A stretch of 49,687 nucleotides of DNA from Phycisphaerales bacterium (GTDB taxonomy: Bacteria; Planctomycetota; Phycisphaerae; Phycisphaerales; SM1A02): assembly GCA_029245245.1 (NCBI GenBank), contig JAQWPT010000016.1:1-49687 (forward strand), read 5' to 3'. Shown here in pieces: positions 10,178 to 18,158 of the stretch. Positions within the stretch are counted from its first letter, which is position 1. Each line of letters begins with the position of its first letter. The notes under the pieces were generated by a model. It saw only the letters and a program-made list of their open reading frames with translations, ran no database searches and was not told the origin of the DNA. A program made the position numbers and the translations under genes.

Positions 10178-11140
10178 ATGAGCACGACCTACACCCTGCC
10201 ATTCGAAGAGCCCGTGGTTGAACTCGATCGCCAGATCGAGGCCCTCGCCGCTCGCGATGATGCAGAGTCCATGCAGGTGGAACTCGACAGTCTCCGGCAG
10301 AATCGCAACAGCCTTCTCGAGAAGATCTACGGCCAACTGACCCCTTGGGACACCGTCCGGGTTGCACGGCACCCGAACCGACCCCAGACCGCCGACTACA
10401 TCAACATGATCTGCCGTGACTTCCGAGAGCTCCACGGCGACCGCACCTTTGGTGACGACCGCAGCATCATCACGGGGCTGGGTCGGATCGGCTCGTTCAA
10501 GGCCCTCATTGTCGGACACCAGAAGGGACGCACCACCCAGGAACGGATTGCCTGCCATTTCGGGTGCGCCCACCCTGAGGGATACCGCAAGGCACTGAAG
10601 AAGATGAAACTGGCCGAAAAGTTCGGCCTCCCGATCGTCACCCTGATCGACACGCCCGGCGCCTACCCCGGCCTGAAGGCCGAGGAACGCGGACAGGCCG
10701 AAGCCATCGCGTTGAACCTGCGCGAGATGAGCCGGATCAAGACACCCATCATCAGCATCGTCATCGGCGAAGGCGGCTCCGGCGGCGCCCTGGGGATCGG
10801 CGTGGCTGATCGCGTGGCGATGATGGAGTTCGCCTGGTACTCCGTGATCAGTCCGGAGGGATGCGCGGCCATCCTCTGGAAGGAAGCGAACGAGTCCACG
10901 AACACGAAGGCGGCCAGCGCCTTGTCCTTGACGGCCAATCACAACATGAAACATGGTCTTGTCGATGCCAAGATCAGTGAACCACTCGGTGGCGCACACC
11001 GCGATCCTCAACAGTCGGCGGAACAACTCCAGCGATGGATCATTGATACCCTTCGTGAACTGGAGCGATTCAACGCCAGATCCCTCGTGGAACGTCGGTA
11101 CGAGAAGTTCCGCCGCATGGGCACCATGATCGAGGGTTGA
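10178..11140 (+). CDS. accA: Acetyl-CoA carboxylase carboxyltransferase subunit alpha
   Basis: AccA, with AccD, transfers the carboxyl group from carboxybiotin to acetyl-CoA, making malonyl-CoA for fatty acid synthesis. The N-terminal helix region (PVVELDRQIEAL) and LTPWDTVRVARHPNRPQTADYI are diagnostic, as are FGCAHPEGYRKAL, LIDTPGAYPGLKAEERGQAEAIA and GEGGSGGALGIGVADRV. Length (320 aa) matches E. coli AccA. GGAG precedes the ATG. accD is not in the window, which is usual. Confidence 0.97.
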   Translation: MSTTYTLPFEEPVVELDRQIEALAARDDAESMQVELDSLRQNRNSLLEKIYGQLTPWDTVRVARHPNRPQTADYINMICRDFRELHGDRTFGDDRSIITGLGRIGSFKALIVGHQKGRTTQERIACHFGCAHPEGYRKALKKMKLAEKFGLPIVTLIDTPGAYPGLKAEERGQAEAIALNLREMSRIKTPIISIVIGEGGSGGALGIGVADRVAMMEFAWYSVISPEGCAAILWKEANESTNTKAASALSLTANHNMKHGLVDAKISEPLGGAHRDPQQSAEQLQRWIIDTLRELERFNARSLVERRYEKFRRMGTMIEG

Positions 11141-11171: not shown

Positions 11172-11200
11172 TTGACGGGCACCCTGCCGACATCTACAAT
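11172..11200 (+). promoter_or_regulatory. Sigma70-type promoter of the dksA-like/lspA/truB operon
   Basis: TTGACG (11172-11177), a 17-nt spacer and TACAAT (11195-11200) form one of the two best promoters in the window. The predicted leader is about 78 nt before the ATG at 11286. Confidence 0.75.
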
Positions 11201-11285: not shown

Positions 11286-12092
11286 ATGGCCAAGAAGACC
11301 GCAAAGAAAACCGCCAAGAAGACCAAGAAGAAGACGGCAGCCACCAGGAAGCCGGCCAAGAAGGCTGCGCCCAAGAAGAAGGCCGCCAAGAAGGCTTCAA
11401 AGAAGGTGGCCAAGAAGGCCGCCAAGAAGGTTGCCAAGAAGACTTCAAAGAAGGTGGCAAAGAAGGCGACCACCGCCAAGACCGGCAAGAAATCGAAATC
11501 CAAACCAGCCCCGGCGACCACTGGCGGCAAGCGACGTCGACAGACCGTGCAGGAAGCCGTCCTCGCCAGCGAGGCCGATGCCCAGGGATACGTCGTCATC
11601 AATGGTCGCCGAATCCGGAAGATCTCGACCAACCCGGAAAAGATGCCCAAGAAAAAGCGATCCACGACGGCGGCCGCAGCCAGCGAGGATTCTTCCGCGA
11701 AGATCGCAAGCATGAAGACGAAACTGAGCAAGGTGGAACTCAAGGAGTTTCAGAAACTCCTGATCTCGAAGCGTCGTGATCTCTTCAAGGCGGTGGATTC
11801 GCTGGAAACCGAAGCACTGCGAAGTGATGACGGCGACACCTCCACGATGCCCATCCACATGGCGGATGTCGGATCCGATGTCTACGAACAGGACCTCATG
11901 CTCGGCATGGCGGCAAGTGAACGTGAGCGCATCCGTGAGATCGATGAAGCCCTTGAACGCATCGCCAACAAGACCTACGGAATCTGCATGCTCACCGGCA
12001 AGCAGATCCGCAATGAACGTCTCCGTGCCAAGCCCTGGGCCAAGTACAGCATTGATGCCAAGCGCCAGGTCGAACGCGGCATGGTCCAGTGA
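11286..12092 (+). CDS. DksA/TraR-like protein with histone H1-like Lys/Ala-rich N-terminal tail
   Basis: The N-terminal ~80 residues are almost wholly Lys, Ala and Thr in AKK/KKVAKK repeats, like bacterial histone H1-type (Hc1/AlgP) tails that bind DNA. After a linker containing GYVVINGRRIRKI, residues ~140-268 form a DksA/TraR domain: a coiled coil (LSKVELKEFQKLLISKRRDL), then YGICMLTGKQIRNERLRAKPWAKYSIDAKRQ. DksA binds RNA polymerase through its secondary channel. The usual four zinc cysteines are reduced to one here (Cys in YGIC), so zinc binding is probably lost. It leads an operon with lspA (GTGA overlap) and truB. DksA-like genes next to lspA are, from memory, common in planctomycetes. 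Confidence 0.88.
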   Translation: MAKKTAKKTAKKTKKKTAATRKPAKKAAPKKKAAKKASKKVAKKAAKKVAKKTSKKVAKKATTAKTGKKSKSKPAPATTGGKRRRQTVQEAVLASEADAQGYVVINGRRIRKISTNPEKMPKKKRSTTAAAASEDSSAKIASMKTKLSKVELKEFQKLLISKRRDLFKAVDSLETEALRSDDGDTSTMPIHMADVGSDVYEQDLMLGMAASERERIREIDEALERIANKTYGICMLTGKQIRNERLRAKPWAKYSIDAKRQVERGMVQ

Positions 12093-12787
12093 CCTCCCCC
12101 GTCACTCCTGAATCCGACCAGAACACACCTCCACGCGAGCCGAACCGATCCTTTACACCGGCACGGCGATCCGCAACAGCCTGGGTGGTGCTCCTGGGCG
12201 TGCTCCTGGCTGGCCTCGGCTTTGACCTCGGCACCAAGATCTGGAGTTTCGACAACGTTGCGGATGTACCGGTGGTACTCGATCGCACGAGCATCATCGA
12301 GAACGCCAATGTCAATCCCATCCCACCCCATGACAGCATCGTGCTGATCCCGGGACGGATGCTCAATCTCCACCTGGTCCTGAACTCGGGAGCAGTCTTC
12401 GGCATCGGAGCCGAGCAGCGAACGTTCTTTGTGATCTTCACCATCCTGGCCGTCACGATCTGCCTGCTGACCTTCGTCTGCTGGATGGCCGCCGACAGCA
12501 CCCTTGCCCACATCGGGATCGCCCTCGTGCTCGCCGGTGCGCTGGGCAATCTCTGGGACCGGGTGCTCTACGGCCGTGTTCGTGACTTCCTGCACATGCT
12601 TCCCGACCGCCACCTCCCGTTTGGCTGGTCGTGGCCGGGCGGAAACACGGAACTTTTTCCCTGGGTCTTCAACGTCGCCGACGTGATGCTGCTGGCGGGC
12701 ATGGCCCTGCTCCTGCTGCACCTGCACCTGAGTGATCGAAAGCAGGTCCGGAAGACGGCATCGTCCAGCCAAGAGAACGGAACGTGA
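12089..12787 (+). CDS. lspA: Lipoprotein signal peptidase (signal peptidase II)
   Basis: LspA removes the signal peptide from prolipoproteins after lipid attachment, at the inner membrane. The conserved LNSGAVFG (~98-105), GALGNLWDRVLYGRVRDF (catalytic Asp166) and FNVADVMLLAG (catalytic Asp198) are all present, with four membrane helices. At 232 aa it is long for the family (~160-170). The extra length is a Pro-rich N-terminal tail (~30 aa), a longer loop after helix 1 (~55-90) and an insert before FNVAD (~168-192). The GTG start overlaps the stop of the dksA-like gene, and the stop overlaps the GTG of truB, so all three are coupled. MltA is one likely substrate encoded in the window. Confidence 0.95.
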   Translation: MTSPVTPESDQNTPPREPNRSFTPARRSATAWVVLLGVLLAGLGFDLGTKIWSFDNVADVPVVLDRTSIIENANVNPIPPHDSIVLIPGRMLNLHLVLNSGAVFGIGAEQRTFFVIFTILAVTICLLTFVCWMAADSTLAHIGIALVLAGALGNLWDRVLYGRVRDFLHMLPDRHLPFGWSWPGGNTELFPWVFNVADVMLLAGMALLLLHLHLSDRKQVRKTASSSQENGT

Positions 12788-13491
12788 CCACGGAGATCGA
12801 ATCACGACGTTTGCGCATCAGCGGATTGCTTGCCGTGAACAAACCCACACTCCTGTCCTCGATGGGAGTGATCTCCCGCGTGCGGGGGCGAGCCAAGGGT
12901 GTACGAACCGGCCATGCCGGCACCCTTGATCCGCTGGCGACCGGCGTTCTCGTGATCGGGCTCGGTCGAGCGACCAAGCAACTCGATGCCCTGATGGGGC
13001 TGGACAAACGCTATCAAACCACGATCGACCTTTCACGCACCACTCCGTCCTTCGACCTGGAACTGGAGCCGGAAGATGTCGAGATTCCGGTCATTCCCGA
13101 TCAGGTCTCGATCGAGCGTGCACTGGCTGACTTGGAAGGCGAGTGCATGCAGGCCCCGCCGGCCTTCAGCGCGATCAAGATCGATGGAAAGCGGGCGTAC
13201 GTCGGAGCACGGAAGCAACAGCACGACGACCTGCCCCCTCGCCCGGTGCATGTGCACTCACTGTCGCTGACACGGTTTCAATGGCCGGAGGTGGACATCG
13301 ACATCCACTGCGGCAAGGGGTTCTACGTCCGAGCACTGGCTCGCGACCTCGGACGAGTCCTTGGTTGTGGCGGAGTATGCATGAGCATTCATCGCTCCGC
13401 CATCGGCCCCTATACGGATGAGATGGCGATGTCATTCGACGGCATACCGGACCCCCTTGAGCAGGAACACCTGCTGCCAATCCCCAACTAA
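12784..13491 (+). CDS. truB: tRNA pseudouridine(55) synthase
   Basis: TruB makes pseudouridine 55 in the T-loop of tRNAs. The catalytic block GHAGTLDPLATGVLVIGLGRATK contains Asp49. KRYQTTIDL, the APPAFSAIKIDGKRAY motif and GFYVRALARDLG are further family blocks. Length (235 aa) matches short TruB forms without the C-terminal PUA domain. The start is a GTG that overlaps the lspA stop. Confidence 0.95.
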   Translation: MTTEIESRRLRISGLLAVNKPTLLSSMGVISRVRGRAKGVRTGHAGTLDPLATGVLVIGLGRATKQLDALMGLDKRYQTTIDLSRTTPSFDLELEPEDVEIPVIPDQVSIERALADLEGECMQAPPAFSAIKIDGKRAYVGARKQQHDDLPPRPVHVHSLSLTRFQWPEVDIDIHCGKGFYVRALARDLGRVLGCGGVCMSIHRSAIGPYTDEMAMSFDGIPDPLEQEHLLPIPN

Positions 13492-13561
13492 GTGCTCATG
13501 AACAATATTTTCCCTTGTATTGAGTCGGCTCGACTGCTCAAATGGGGCCGAGCACACACCC

Positions 13562-15751
13562 ATGAATACCACCCGATTCATCATCTCGGGGCTGACCCTG
13601 GCCTTGGCCTCGATCGCCACAGCCACTGACAAGGCCCCCCTGTCCGTTGCACCCGATACCCCCGCCCAGGTCGAGCGATTCGGTGGACTGCCCCTGCAGG
13701 TGCATCCCATGCAGGATGCCGGCCAGGCGATCGTACTCAGGCAGGTGCCACTTGATTCCCATCGCAACGTCGACCTGCAACTGCAGCGACTTGACGTTCT
13801 GGCACCGGGCGCGGTCTTCCACGCCGCCAGCATCGATGACGATGGCCACATCCACACCGAGGTGCTTCCCACGCCCCACGTGGATTGTTTCCATGGACAG
13901 GTCGCCGGTGAACCGGATTCGCACGTCTACCTGGCGATCGGAACCCGGGGAGCCAACGGCTGGATCGAGCGCGATGGTGAACTGCATGTGATCACCACGC
14001 ACCCCATCGAGGGCTGGACCGCGATCTACGACCTGAAGACCATCGATCCCGTGGACATGAATTGGACCGACTTCCACTGCGCGACCGAGGCCGCCATGCC
14101 CAACCACGACACGGCGAAGTCCTCGACCCGTTCCCGAGGCGACATCGGATGCCTGTCGATGCTGATGGCGATCGAGACGGACTGGGAATTCGCGGGCCTC
14201 TTCGGTGGAGATCTCACGGCCACGGCCGAGTACATCCAGACCCTCATCGGCGCCGTCTCAAGCATCTACGACCGGGACATCGGCATCAAGATCACCGTGA
14301 GCTACTCCAGGCTCTGGTCCGATTCCGACGACCCATGGACTGGAAGTGATTCCGGAAACCAGCTGGGACAGTTCCAGGGCCACTGGGAAAGCAACATGGA
14401 TCACATCTCCCGCCAGATGGCCCACTTCCTCAGCGGTCGCAATCTCGGTGGAGGCGTGGCCTACCTCGGCACCCTCTGCTCAAGCCTTGCCTACGCAGTC
14501 TCGGGAAACCTCGGTGGCTCCTTCCCGGTCCCGCTGGAGGACAACAACGGCGGAAACTGGGACCCAATGGTGGTCGCCCATGAAACCGGTCACACCTGCG
14601 GCTCCGGCCATACCCACGATTCCTACAATCCACCCATCGACGGGTGCGGCAACGGCGACTGCACCGATGCGAACCTCGGAACCGTCATGAGTTACTGCCA
14701 CCTCTGCAGCGGCGGGCTCTCGAACATGGCGATGGAGTTTCATCCGCAGGTCCAGGAAGTGATCATCGGGTTCCTGAACTCGGACCTCGGGTGCGAGTTC
14801 GGCGGTGATGGCTCCGCTCCGTTCGCCGCCTCCGACCTCGTCGAAACGATGGGTGATGACCCGATCGACATCCCGGTGCTGATCAACGACTACACCAACG
14901 ACTGCTCGGCCCCGATCGTGGACACATGGGATGCGATCTCCCTTGATGGCGGAACCATTGAACTGCTCGACAACGACCCGGCACAAGGACTGCTTCGATA
15001 CACCCCCCCCGCCGGTGGAATGACCGATGGCGGCGACTTCTTCCGCTACGACATTCTCGATGGAAGCAGCCAGCCGGCGTCCGCCGCCGTCCTGGTCGTC
15101 GAGGTTCCCGCCCGTGCCCCGGACACGCCGGCAGCCACCGAACCGGGACCGACCGCAGCCTACTATGAACTGGACAATCCCCAGGTCCTCCCGGACTTCA
15201 GCACCCTCGAACCCTACCTCGTGGAAGTGGTCTCCAACGTCAACTACCCGAGCACCAACGGCGACTTCGCCGGCTCGGGCCTGAGCAACGACTTCGGCGT
15301 GGTATTCACCGGCTTCATCGAGGTACCCGAGGACGACTGGTACACGCTCCATACCAACTCCGATGATGGTTCGACGCTGCATGTCGGCGATGAACTGGTC
15401 GTCTCCAACGACGGCCTGCACGGCATGCAGGAACGCAGTGGCATGCTTGCCCTCCAGGCCGGTCGCCACGCCATCCGCGTGGAGTTCTTCGAACGTGGCG
15501 GTGGAGCTGGATGCATCGTCAGCATCGAAGGCGGCGGCATGGACAAGCAACCCGTCGCGGATTCGATGTGGTCGCACGAAGTCGAACTCGTGGGCGACGC
15601 CAACGGCGACGGCATGGTGGACGTCCTGGACCTGCTGCAGGTCATTCTCGAATGGGGGCCCTGCCCACCGACTCCATGCCAGAGCGATCTCGACGGCAAC
15701 GGATCCGTCGATGTCGAGGATCTGCTGGTCGTGCTTGGCGCCTGGGTCTAG
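13562..15751 (+). CDS. Exported zinc metalloprotease with PA14 and dockerin-like domains
   Basis: A signal peptide (TRFIISGLTLALASIATATD) leads a 729-aa exported protein. A prodomain-like region (~30-180) precedes a metzincin-type catalytic domain; its zinc site is HETGHTCGSGH (~340-350), i.e. HExxHxxGxxH, as in reprolysin/M12B peptidases. A later MSY in VMSYCHLCSG fits the Met-turn. A cadherin-like linker follows, then a PA14 domain (~540-665, YYELD..., FTGFIEVPEDDWYTLHTNSDDGS, ADSMW) that may bind carbohydrate. The C-terminus is a two-repeat dockerin-like module (GDANGDGMVDVLDLLQVI; DLDGNGSVDVEDLLVVLGAW). The ATG at 13562 gives a proper signal peptide. Its substrate is unknown. It converges with the next gene across 9 bases. 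Confidence 0.88.
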   Translation: MNTTRFIISGLTLALASIATATDKAPLSVAPDTPAQVERFGGLPLQVHPMQDAGQAIVLRQVPLDSHRNVDLQLQRLDVLAPGAVFHAASIDDDGHIHTEVLPTPHVDCFHGQVAGEPDSHVYLAIGTRGANGWIERDGELHVITTHPIEGWTAIYDLKTIDPVDMNWTDFHCATEAAMPNHDTAKSSTRSRGDIGCLSMLMAIETDWEFAGLFGGDLTATAEYIQTLIGAVSSIYDRDIGIKITVSYSRLWSDSDDPWTGSDSGNQLGQFQGHWESNMDHISRQMAHFLSGRNLGGGVAYLGTLCSSLAYAVSGNLGGSFPVPLEDNNGGNWDPMVVAHETGHTCGSGHTHDSYNPPIDGCGNGDCTDANLGTVMSYCHLCSGGLSNMAMEFHPQVQEVIIGFLNSDLGCEFGGDGSAPFAASDLVETMGDDPIDIPVLINDYTNDCSAPIVDTWDAISLDGGTIELLDNDPAQGLLRYTPPAGGMTDGGDFFRYDILDGSSQPASAAVLVVEVPARAPDTPAATEPGPTAAYYELDNPQVLPDFSTLEPYLVEVVSNVNYPSTNGDFAGSGLSNDFGVVFTGFIEVPEDDWYTLHTNSDDGSTLHVGDELVVSNDGLHGMQERSGMLALQAGRHAIRVEFFERGGGAGCIVSIEGGGMDKQPVADSMWSHEVELVGDANGDGMVDVLDLLQVILEWGPCPPTPCQSDLDGNGSVDVEDLLVVLGAWV

Positions 15752-17945: not shown

Positions 17946-17984
17946 AAAAAACAGCACGGCCGTGGACACACCACGGCCGTGCTG
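17946..17984 (-). terminator. Strong intrinsic terminator of the tRNA-Ser/tRNA-Pro operon
   Basis: A perfect 14-bp inverted repeat (17952-17965 with 17971-17984) has a 5-nt loop, and on the minus strand it is followed by six T (17946-17951). It begins 2 nt after the tRNA-Pro 3' end. Confidence 0.93.
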
Positions 17985-17986
17985 AA

Positions 17987-18061
17987 TCGGGCTGGACGGA
18001 TTCGAACCGTCGACCTCTTGACCCCCAGTCAAGCGCGCTAACCAAGCTGCGCTACAGCCCG
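17987..18061 (-). tRNA. tRNA-Pro (anticodon GGG)
   Basis: The acceptor stem CGGGCTG pairs with CAGCCCG, with discriminator A. The 5' C is typical of bacterial tRNA-Pro. The anticodon stem CTTGA/TCAAG encloses CTGGGGG, giving GGG. The T-arm has GGTTCGAATCC. No CCA is encoded. It lies 10 bases downstream of tRNA-Ser on the same strand. Confidence 0.93.
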
Positions 18062-18071
18062 CAACATGAAG

Positions 18072-18158
18072 CGGACAGGGTGGGATTCGAACCCACGGTA
18101 CGCCGAAACGCACACACGCTTTCCAAGCGTGCTCCTTAAGCCACTCGGACACCTGTCC
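18072..18158 (-). tRNA. tRNA-Ser (anticodon GGA)
   Basis: An 87-nt class II tRNA with a long variable arm. The acceptor GGACAGG pairs with CCTGTCC, with discriminator G as expected for serine. The anticodon stem CACGC/GCGTG encloses TTGGAAA, giving GGA. The T-arm is GGTTCGAATCC. No CCA is encoded. Confidence 0.94.

Follow-up and report, generated by a model that had tools for sequence, protein, structure and literature searches.

A DksA-like protein with a lysine-rich, histone H1-like tail and a one-cysteine finger in Phycisphaerae

DksA is commonly regarded as a partner of guanosine tetraphosphate (ppGpp) and as a zinc protein. Streptomyces carries a relative named DdbA, of which Aldridge et al. 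2013 is reportedly the primary study. As set out in passages of PMC9043899 and PMC11942623, DdbA (SCO2075) is a nucleoid-associated protein that joins an N-terminal, DNA-binding H1-like part to a C-terminal DksA part, and a table in PMC11942623 has it acting with ppGpp. Lysine-rich tails are also described for mycobacterial and streptomycete HU proteins in parts of PMC11942623 and PMC11229371, while an excerpt of PMC9213440 describes a two-cysteine DksA2 that can substitute for DksA1 without coordinating zinc. Here we describe a dksA-like gene at positions 11286 to 12092 of a 49,687-nucleotide stretch of DNA from a Phycisphaerales bacterium (GCA_029245245.1, JAQWPT010000016.1, positions 1 to 49,687; the whole stretch is hereafter the window). 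Its product carries a histone H1-like tail in front of a DksA-like domain with a single zinc-site cysteine. We judge, with confidence a little above even, that it is a ppGpp- and zinc-independent RNA polymerase factor of the DksA type, tethered to DNA by its polycationic tail.

Architecture of the window protein

The gene and the parts of its product are as follows.

11286..12092, + strand: dksA-like gene encoding H1-like tail, middle module and DksA-like domain (ATG start, 268 aa, one open reading frame)
11286..11540, + strand: Lys/Ala/Thr-rich tail, residues 1-85 (net charge +39; predicted disordered)
11547..11618, + strand: middle module, helix 88-94 and beta hairpin 102-111, GYVVINGRRIR (AlphaFold2)
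11730..11966, + strand: coiled-coil arms 149-179 and 194-227, tip H191-x-A-D194-x-G196 (alignment, AlphaFold2, Foldseek)
11973..12077, + strand: PF01258 zinc-finger region with C234 as the only Cys ligand (Pfam, alignment)

A reading of the sequence alone had placed a Lys/Ala-rich, H1-like tail in the first 80 or so residues and a DksA/TraR-like domain at the C-terminus, and both were recovered. The 85 tail residues include 35 Lys, 20 Ala and 11 Thr; Lys-Lys spacing peaks at lag 4, and the net charge from residue 146 onward is +1. The richest 40 residues of the tail contain 20 Lys. None of the window's other 234 open reading frames of 100 codons or more exceeds seven over the same length, so chance base composition does not explain the tail. 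AlphaFold2 left residues 1-80 disordered (mean predicted local distance difference test score, pLDDT, 54-61).

The C-terminal part matched PF01258 (DksA/TraR) at 27.5 bits against a cut-off of 24.9, which places it in the superfamily, and this was the only PF01258 match in the window genome. Relatives L033, L015 and L054 fell just or well under the cut-off (L054 is labelled Alphaproteobacteria and has a phycisphaeral-type protein; the record is probably mislabelled). The AlphaFold2 model, built from 102 aligned rows, had a mean pLDDT of 78.5 and a predicted template modelling (TM) score of 0.56, with a confident coiled coil and globular knob. A structural comparison with DksA and DksA2, proposed earlier as a check, bore out the likeness: Foldseek matched the model to P. 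aeruginosa DksA2 (4ijj, E 2.1e-6, TM 0.78 of target), E. coli DksA (1tjl, E 2.3e-5) and C. trachomatis DksA (6ptg, E 3.0e-4), the last also being the closest PDB entry by sequence. The C-terminal domain is thus predicted to adopt a DksA fold.

Only one of the four zinc cysteines remains, as originally noted: C234 is retained, and T237, S255 and A258 occupy the other three positions. The description of this finger as degenerate holds for the missing ligands and fails if taken to mean damage peculiar to this protein. One-Cys patterns (CSNA, CTSV, CTSA) are present in 6ptg as well as the Bacteroidota loci L101-L106. Among 91 copies from the class Phycisphaerae the number of Cys ligands was one in 45, two in 37 and four in nine. 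A local defect was therefore rejected. Since DksA2 can replace DksA1 without coordinating zinc, the loss of the site is, by analogy, compatible with DksA-like function.

Between the two parts lies a small module predicted with mean pLDDT 85-89 over residues 91-110, whose helix and hairpin reappeared when it was folded apart from the rest. Its consensus is V-x-E-A-x(6)-D-x-x-G-Y-V-I-I-N-G-R-R-I-R-x-I-S, and the G-Y-V motif stands 131-136 residues ahead of the Cys in 27 of 28 distinct copies (162 in the other). When a profile of the module was run against 101 genomes of the order, 27 matched, once each and all within the family of the window protein, two of them weakly (E 0.005-0.009). If the 54 unmatched, unlisted genomes all lie outside the family, this amounts to 27 of 29 listed family genomes and 0 of 72 others. 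Pfam did not recognise the module, its best match being to a phage family (E 0.0034, in three of 28 members).

The hairpin is the ground for the best rival reading, in which the basic part contacts RNA: with the coiled coil seated in the polymerase, tail and S4-like hairpin would grip RNA, either nascent or ribosomal. In its favour, hhalign aligned the module with the GxVxVNGRxV hairpin of four S4 domains from the same genome at a probability of 76.7, compared with 0.1 for two unrelated control alignments, and the hairpin is Arg-rich (NGRRIR). That alignment spans only 19 columns, however, none of the 28 members matches Pfam S4, and a Foldseek search with the module returned nothing below E 4.7, so a full S4 domain was rejected; relatives in the order but outside the family, moreover, are tailed and lack the module. 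We regard the S4-like hairpin as a lead from sequence rather than an assignment, and RNA contact as a minority possibility, perhaps one chance in five.

Proposed role without zinc and ppGpp

At positions 91, 98 and 129 of E. coli DksA, which we take to be the residues serving ppGpp, the alignment places S211, E218 and K249 of the window protein. A search of the window genome for a RelA_SpoT domain gave no match, although a gap is possible at 96.5% completeness (11 of 14 control genomes were positive). In all, 59 of 61 class genomes, the window genome included, gave none, so the window protein probably works without ppGpp. This agrees with an absence of RelA/SpoT enzymes from the Planctomycetes-Verrucomicrobia-Chlamydiae (PVC) superphylum, as reported in part of PMC3153485. 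The same genome had one match of the GreA/GreB type and two of the HU type.

The tip of the coiled coil also departs from DksA, reading HxADxG where DxxDxA is expected. By ungapped offset to 1tjl, H191, D194 and G196 align with D71, D74 and A76, a numbering that we assume for the E. coli tip. Together with the missing zinc ligands and putative ppGpp contacts, this change would suit what is mainly a nucleoid protein, its DksA part no longer regulating and kept as a folded handle. The new tip is, however, nearly invariant, with H191 in 94, D194 in 97 and G196 in 97 of the 102 aligned rows and HADG in 76 of 91 class copies, untailed relatives included, and chlamydial DksA shares it. Such conservation indicates a maintained function, and we consider a mere handle improbable.

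For the DNA-tethered polymerase factor that we favour, we infer binding to RNA polymerase via the secondary channel, nonspecific DNA binding or compaction by the tail, and a joint action of the two. The DksA-like domain would fold without zinc and act without ppGpp, its coiled coil entering the secondary channel with the conserved D194. The tail would bind DNA without sequence choice, like DdbA and the lysine-rich tails of HU, keeping the factor on the nucleoid. Acting together, tail and domain would concentrate the factor locally on DNA and tie nucleoid state to transcription start, and regulation would follow the amount or location of the factor, no ppGpp being made. The sequence-only reading had suggested that the protein could couple nucleoid binding to RNA polymerase control. 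Of this the fused chain stands; any coupling would operate without ppGpp, and its DNA-binding and polymerase-controlling halves are what we infer here.

Several observations weigh against this role. None of the NCBIfam DksA-equivalog models reached its cut-off with the window protein (TIGR02420, 53 against 115.5; NF033459, 62.8 against 105), and the best-scoring NCBIfam models, yteA (72.2 bits) and DksA_like (62.8 bits), stayed below their curated cut-offs of 134.4 and 105. The altered tip is a stronger warning than the loss of zinc. No H1 family in Pfam matches the window protein, nor does the HC2 profile (PF07382), and membership of the H1/HC2 family was rejected on that account. Finally, the DksA is untailed in 19 of the 84 class genomes and weakly tailed in ten, so the tail is not always needed.

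Distribution and evolution in Phycisphaerae

A survey of H1-tail/DksA fusions, as the sequence-only reading had proposed, covered 86 class genomes (41, with 45 added), of which 84 had a DksA-type domain (G436 and G438 gave no match); extra copies in G376, G397, G405, G409, G417, G425, G435 and G440 are omitted from its counts. A tail was called strict with at least 11 Lys and a net charge of +9 in 40 residues, and relaxed with 8 Lys and +7. By these rules 55 of the 84 genomes have a strict tail and ten more a relaxed one (65 in all). By kinship, the tail is strict in the window genome itself, strict in six and relaxed in three of the nine from the same family, strict in all 21 from the rest of the order, and strict in 27 and relaxed in seven of the 53 from the rest of the class.

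That the tail is functionless low-complexity sequence, or that tail and domain are produced or function separately, through an internal start or cleavage, seems to us very unlikely. Some relatives are indeed untailed, and an in-frame ATG at codon 143 lies directly ahead of the domain. This ATG is, however, absent from the near relatives L033 and L034. Across 101 distinct relatives with a strict tail, an ATG lies close to the beginning of the domain in 19, in no case with a Shine-Dalgarno-like box, a weak test given that the gene's own start likewise has none. Separate products from an internal start were rejected on this weak evidence, and the earlier expectation of a single fusion protein stands. 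The strong Lys content in all 21 genomes sampled from elsewhere in the order speaks against a functionless tail.

Tail and zinc-ligand loss mostly co-occur. Nine of the 84 class genomes retain a four-Cys copy, none of them tailed, and the other 75 comprise 55 with a strict tail, ten with a relaxed one and ten without (among the last L244, truncated by a contig end). A broader collection of 175 planctomycete proteins, biased because its members were picked by similarity, showed tails in 60 of 79 one-Cys, 23 of 31 two-Cys and seven of 65 four-Cys forms. These 175 rows remained from 194 DksA frames after removal of four refetched loci (L111, L112, L113, L115), four identical proteins and 11 rows from non-planctomycetes, plasmid records or paralogues (L101-L110, L114). 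One of the seven tailed four-Cys forms, L189 (G203:C15), lies outside the class and has a long, strong tail (19 Lys in 40 residues), so a tail can exist without loss of the zinc ligands.

A quick tree of 143 rows (136 of the 175 planctomycete proteins and seven others; 124 columns) left 63 of 140 branches open. On this poorly resolved tree zinc state changed four times, a count that leans low because the zinc columns were left in the alignment, and tail state 16 times. Coupled gain of the tail and loss of zinc was rejected as a tested claim, one independent pair being too few on such a tree. We offer only tentatively a scenario for Phycisphaerae, whose sampled genomes nearly all lack a RelA/SpoT domain: an ancestral, lspA-linked four-Cys DksA would have dispensed with zinc and ppGpp and acquired a histone-like tail. 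A stringent-response factor would so have become a chromatin-bound RNA polymerase regulator, to which one family would have added a helix-hairpin nucleic-acid-binding module.

One family of the class, f8, includes L019, L020, L028, L030, L117 and L128 (G287, G388, G142, G209, G261, G157). These DksA proteins, and also L063, L065 and L078, have a basic tail in front and end in an acidic tail of 52-71 residues with 25-38 Asp or Glu. The six f8 genomes each hold a second, untailed DksA copy with an acidic end and the pattern CLSY.

Operon context and comparison with known systems

The surroundings of the gene contain the following features.

10178..11140, + strand: accA, upstream neighbour (PF03255, 443.1 bits)
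11172..11200, + strand: sigma-70-like promoter TTGACG-17 nucleotides-TACAAT, 85 nucleotides 5' of the start codon
12089..12787, + strand: lspA, signal peptidase II (PF01252, 100.4 bits; GTG start)
12784..13491, + strand: truB, tRNA pseudouridine synthase (PF01509, 146.1 bits; GTG start)

The lspA GTG at 12089 overlaps the stop of the dksA-like gene and the truB GTG at 12784 overlaps the end of lspA, so the three are probably translated together, with the dksA-like gene at the head of an lspA-truB operon as had been proposed. Because the promoter sits between accA and the dksA-like gene, accA probably lies outside it. The promoter, which the sequence-only reading had ranked among the strongest in the window, is the window's sole 10/12 match to the sigma-70-like consensus (two further sites reach 9/12). 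By itself the match means little, since whole-window scans gave fewer sites than shuffled sequence and a 6.9-kb scan gave one site where 0.9 was expected, and it was rejected as stand-alone evidence. Conservation carries the promoter: both boxes, at identical spacing, lie upstream of the gene in relatives L033, L034, L035 and L099. A looser form occurs within 250 nucleotides upstream in 55 of 90 tailed relatives (those of the 101 with enough upstream sequence), where mononucleotide shuffles expect 0.4, and in 17 of the 21 tailed relatives with the middle module. Downstream, a same-strand lspA comes after the gene in 62 of the 84 class genomes, which may be an undercount owing to contig ends and poor detection.

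Elsewhere in the window, positions 13520-15751 encode a large protein that, as read by eye, carries HETGHTCGSGHTHD, which resembles a zinc-protease motif, and ends in dockerin-like repeats, GDANGDGMVDVLDLL. Two tandem tRNA genes lie on the - strand at 17987-18061 and 18072-18158 (window 17951-18158), with a 14-pair terminator-like hairpin directly behind them at 17984-17952.

Listings of openly licensed literature yielded no paper on the planctomycete tailed DksA form, no function for chlamydial DksA and nothing relevant on a DksA-lspA operon. In Nonomuraea L107 (2917-4818), dksA, lspA and a pseudouridine-synthase-like gene, the third named by eye, stand in a row, so the dksA-lspA linkage extends beyond planctomycetes. 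This DksA, the one actinobacterial lspA-linked copy examined, has four Cys and no tail, which hints, from sequence, at separate origins of the tail in actinobacteria and planctomycetes.

Compared by description, the window protein resembles DdbA in joining an H1-like basic part and a DksA part in one chain; it differs in its phylum and in that DdbA is stated to act with ppGpp, whereas the window genome yielded no RelA/SpoT domain. C. trachomatis DksA (6ptg) shares the one-Cys finger, the HxADxG tip and the PVC superphylum, but its 132-residue chain has no basic tail. P. aeruginosa DksA2 (4ijj), the best fold match, likewise represents a form that does not coordinate zinc, but has two Cys, a DxxDxA-type tip and no tail. 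The highest-scoring families, yteA and DksA_like, do not claim the window protein at their cut-offs, and the HC2 histone H1-like nucleoprotein is similar to the tail in composition, relative L033 reaching 19.5 bits against a cut-off of 40.

The H1-tail/DksA architecture is therefore already known from DdbA, and the one-Cys finger is common to chlamydial and Bacteroidota relatives. New are the class-wide spread of the tailed form, its setting in genomes that nearly all gave no RelA/SpoT match, the tip HxADxG in place of DxxDxA and the family-specific helix-hairpin module. A zinc-less, tailed DksA in a class largely lacking RelA/SpoT would show what role the factor has once the signal is gone. 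The role of H1-DksA fusions becomes testable by comparison, with the middle module as a defined target, and beside Streptomyces there is now a second phylum where one chain may combine nucleoid binding with polymerase control.
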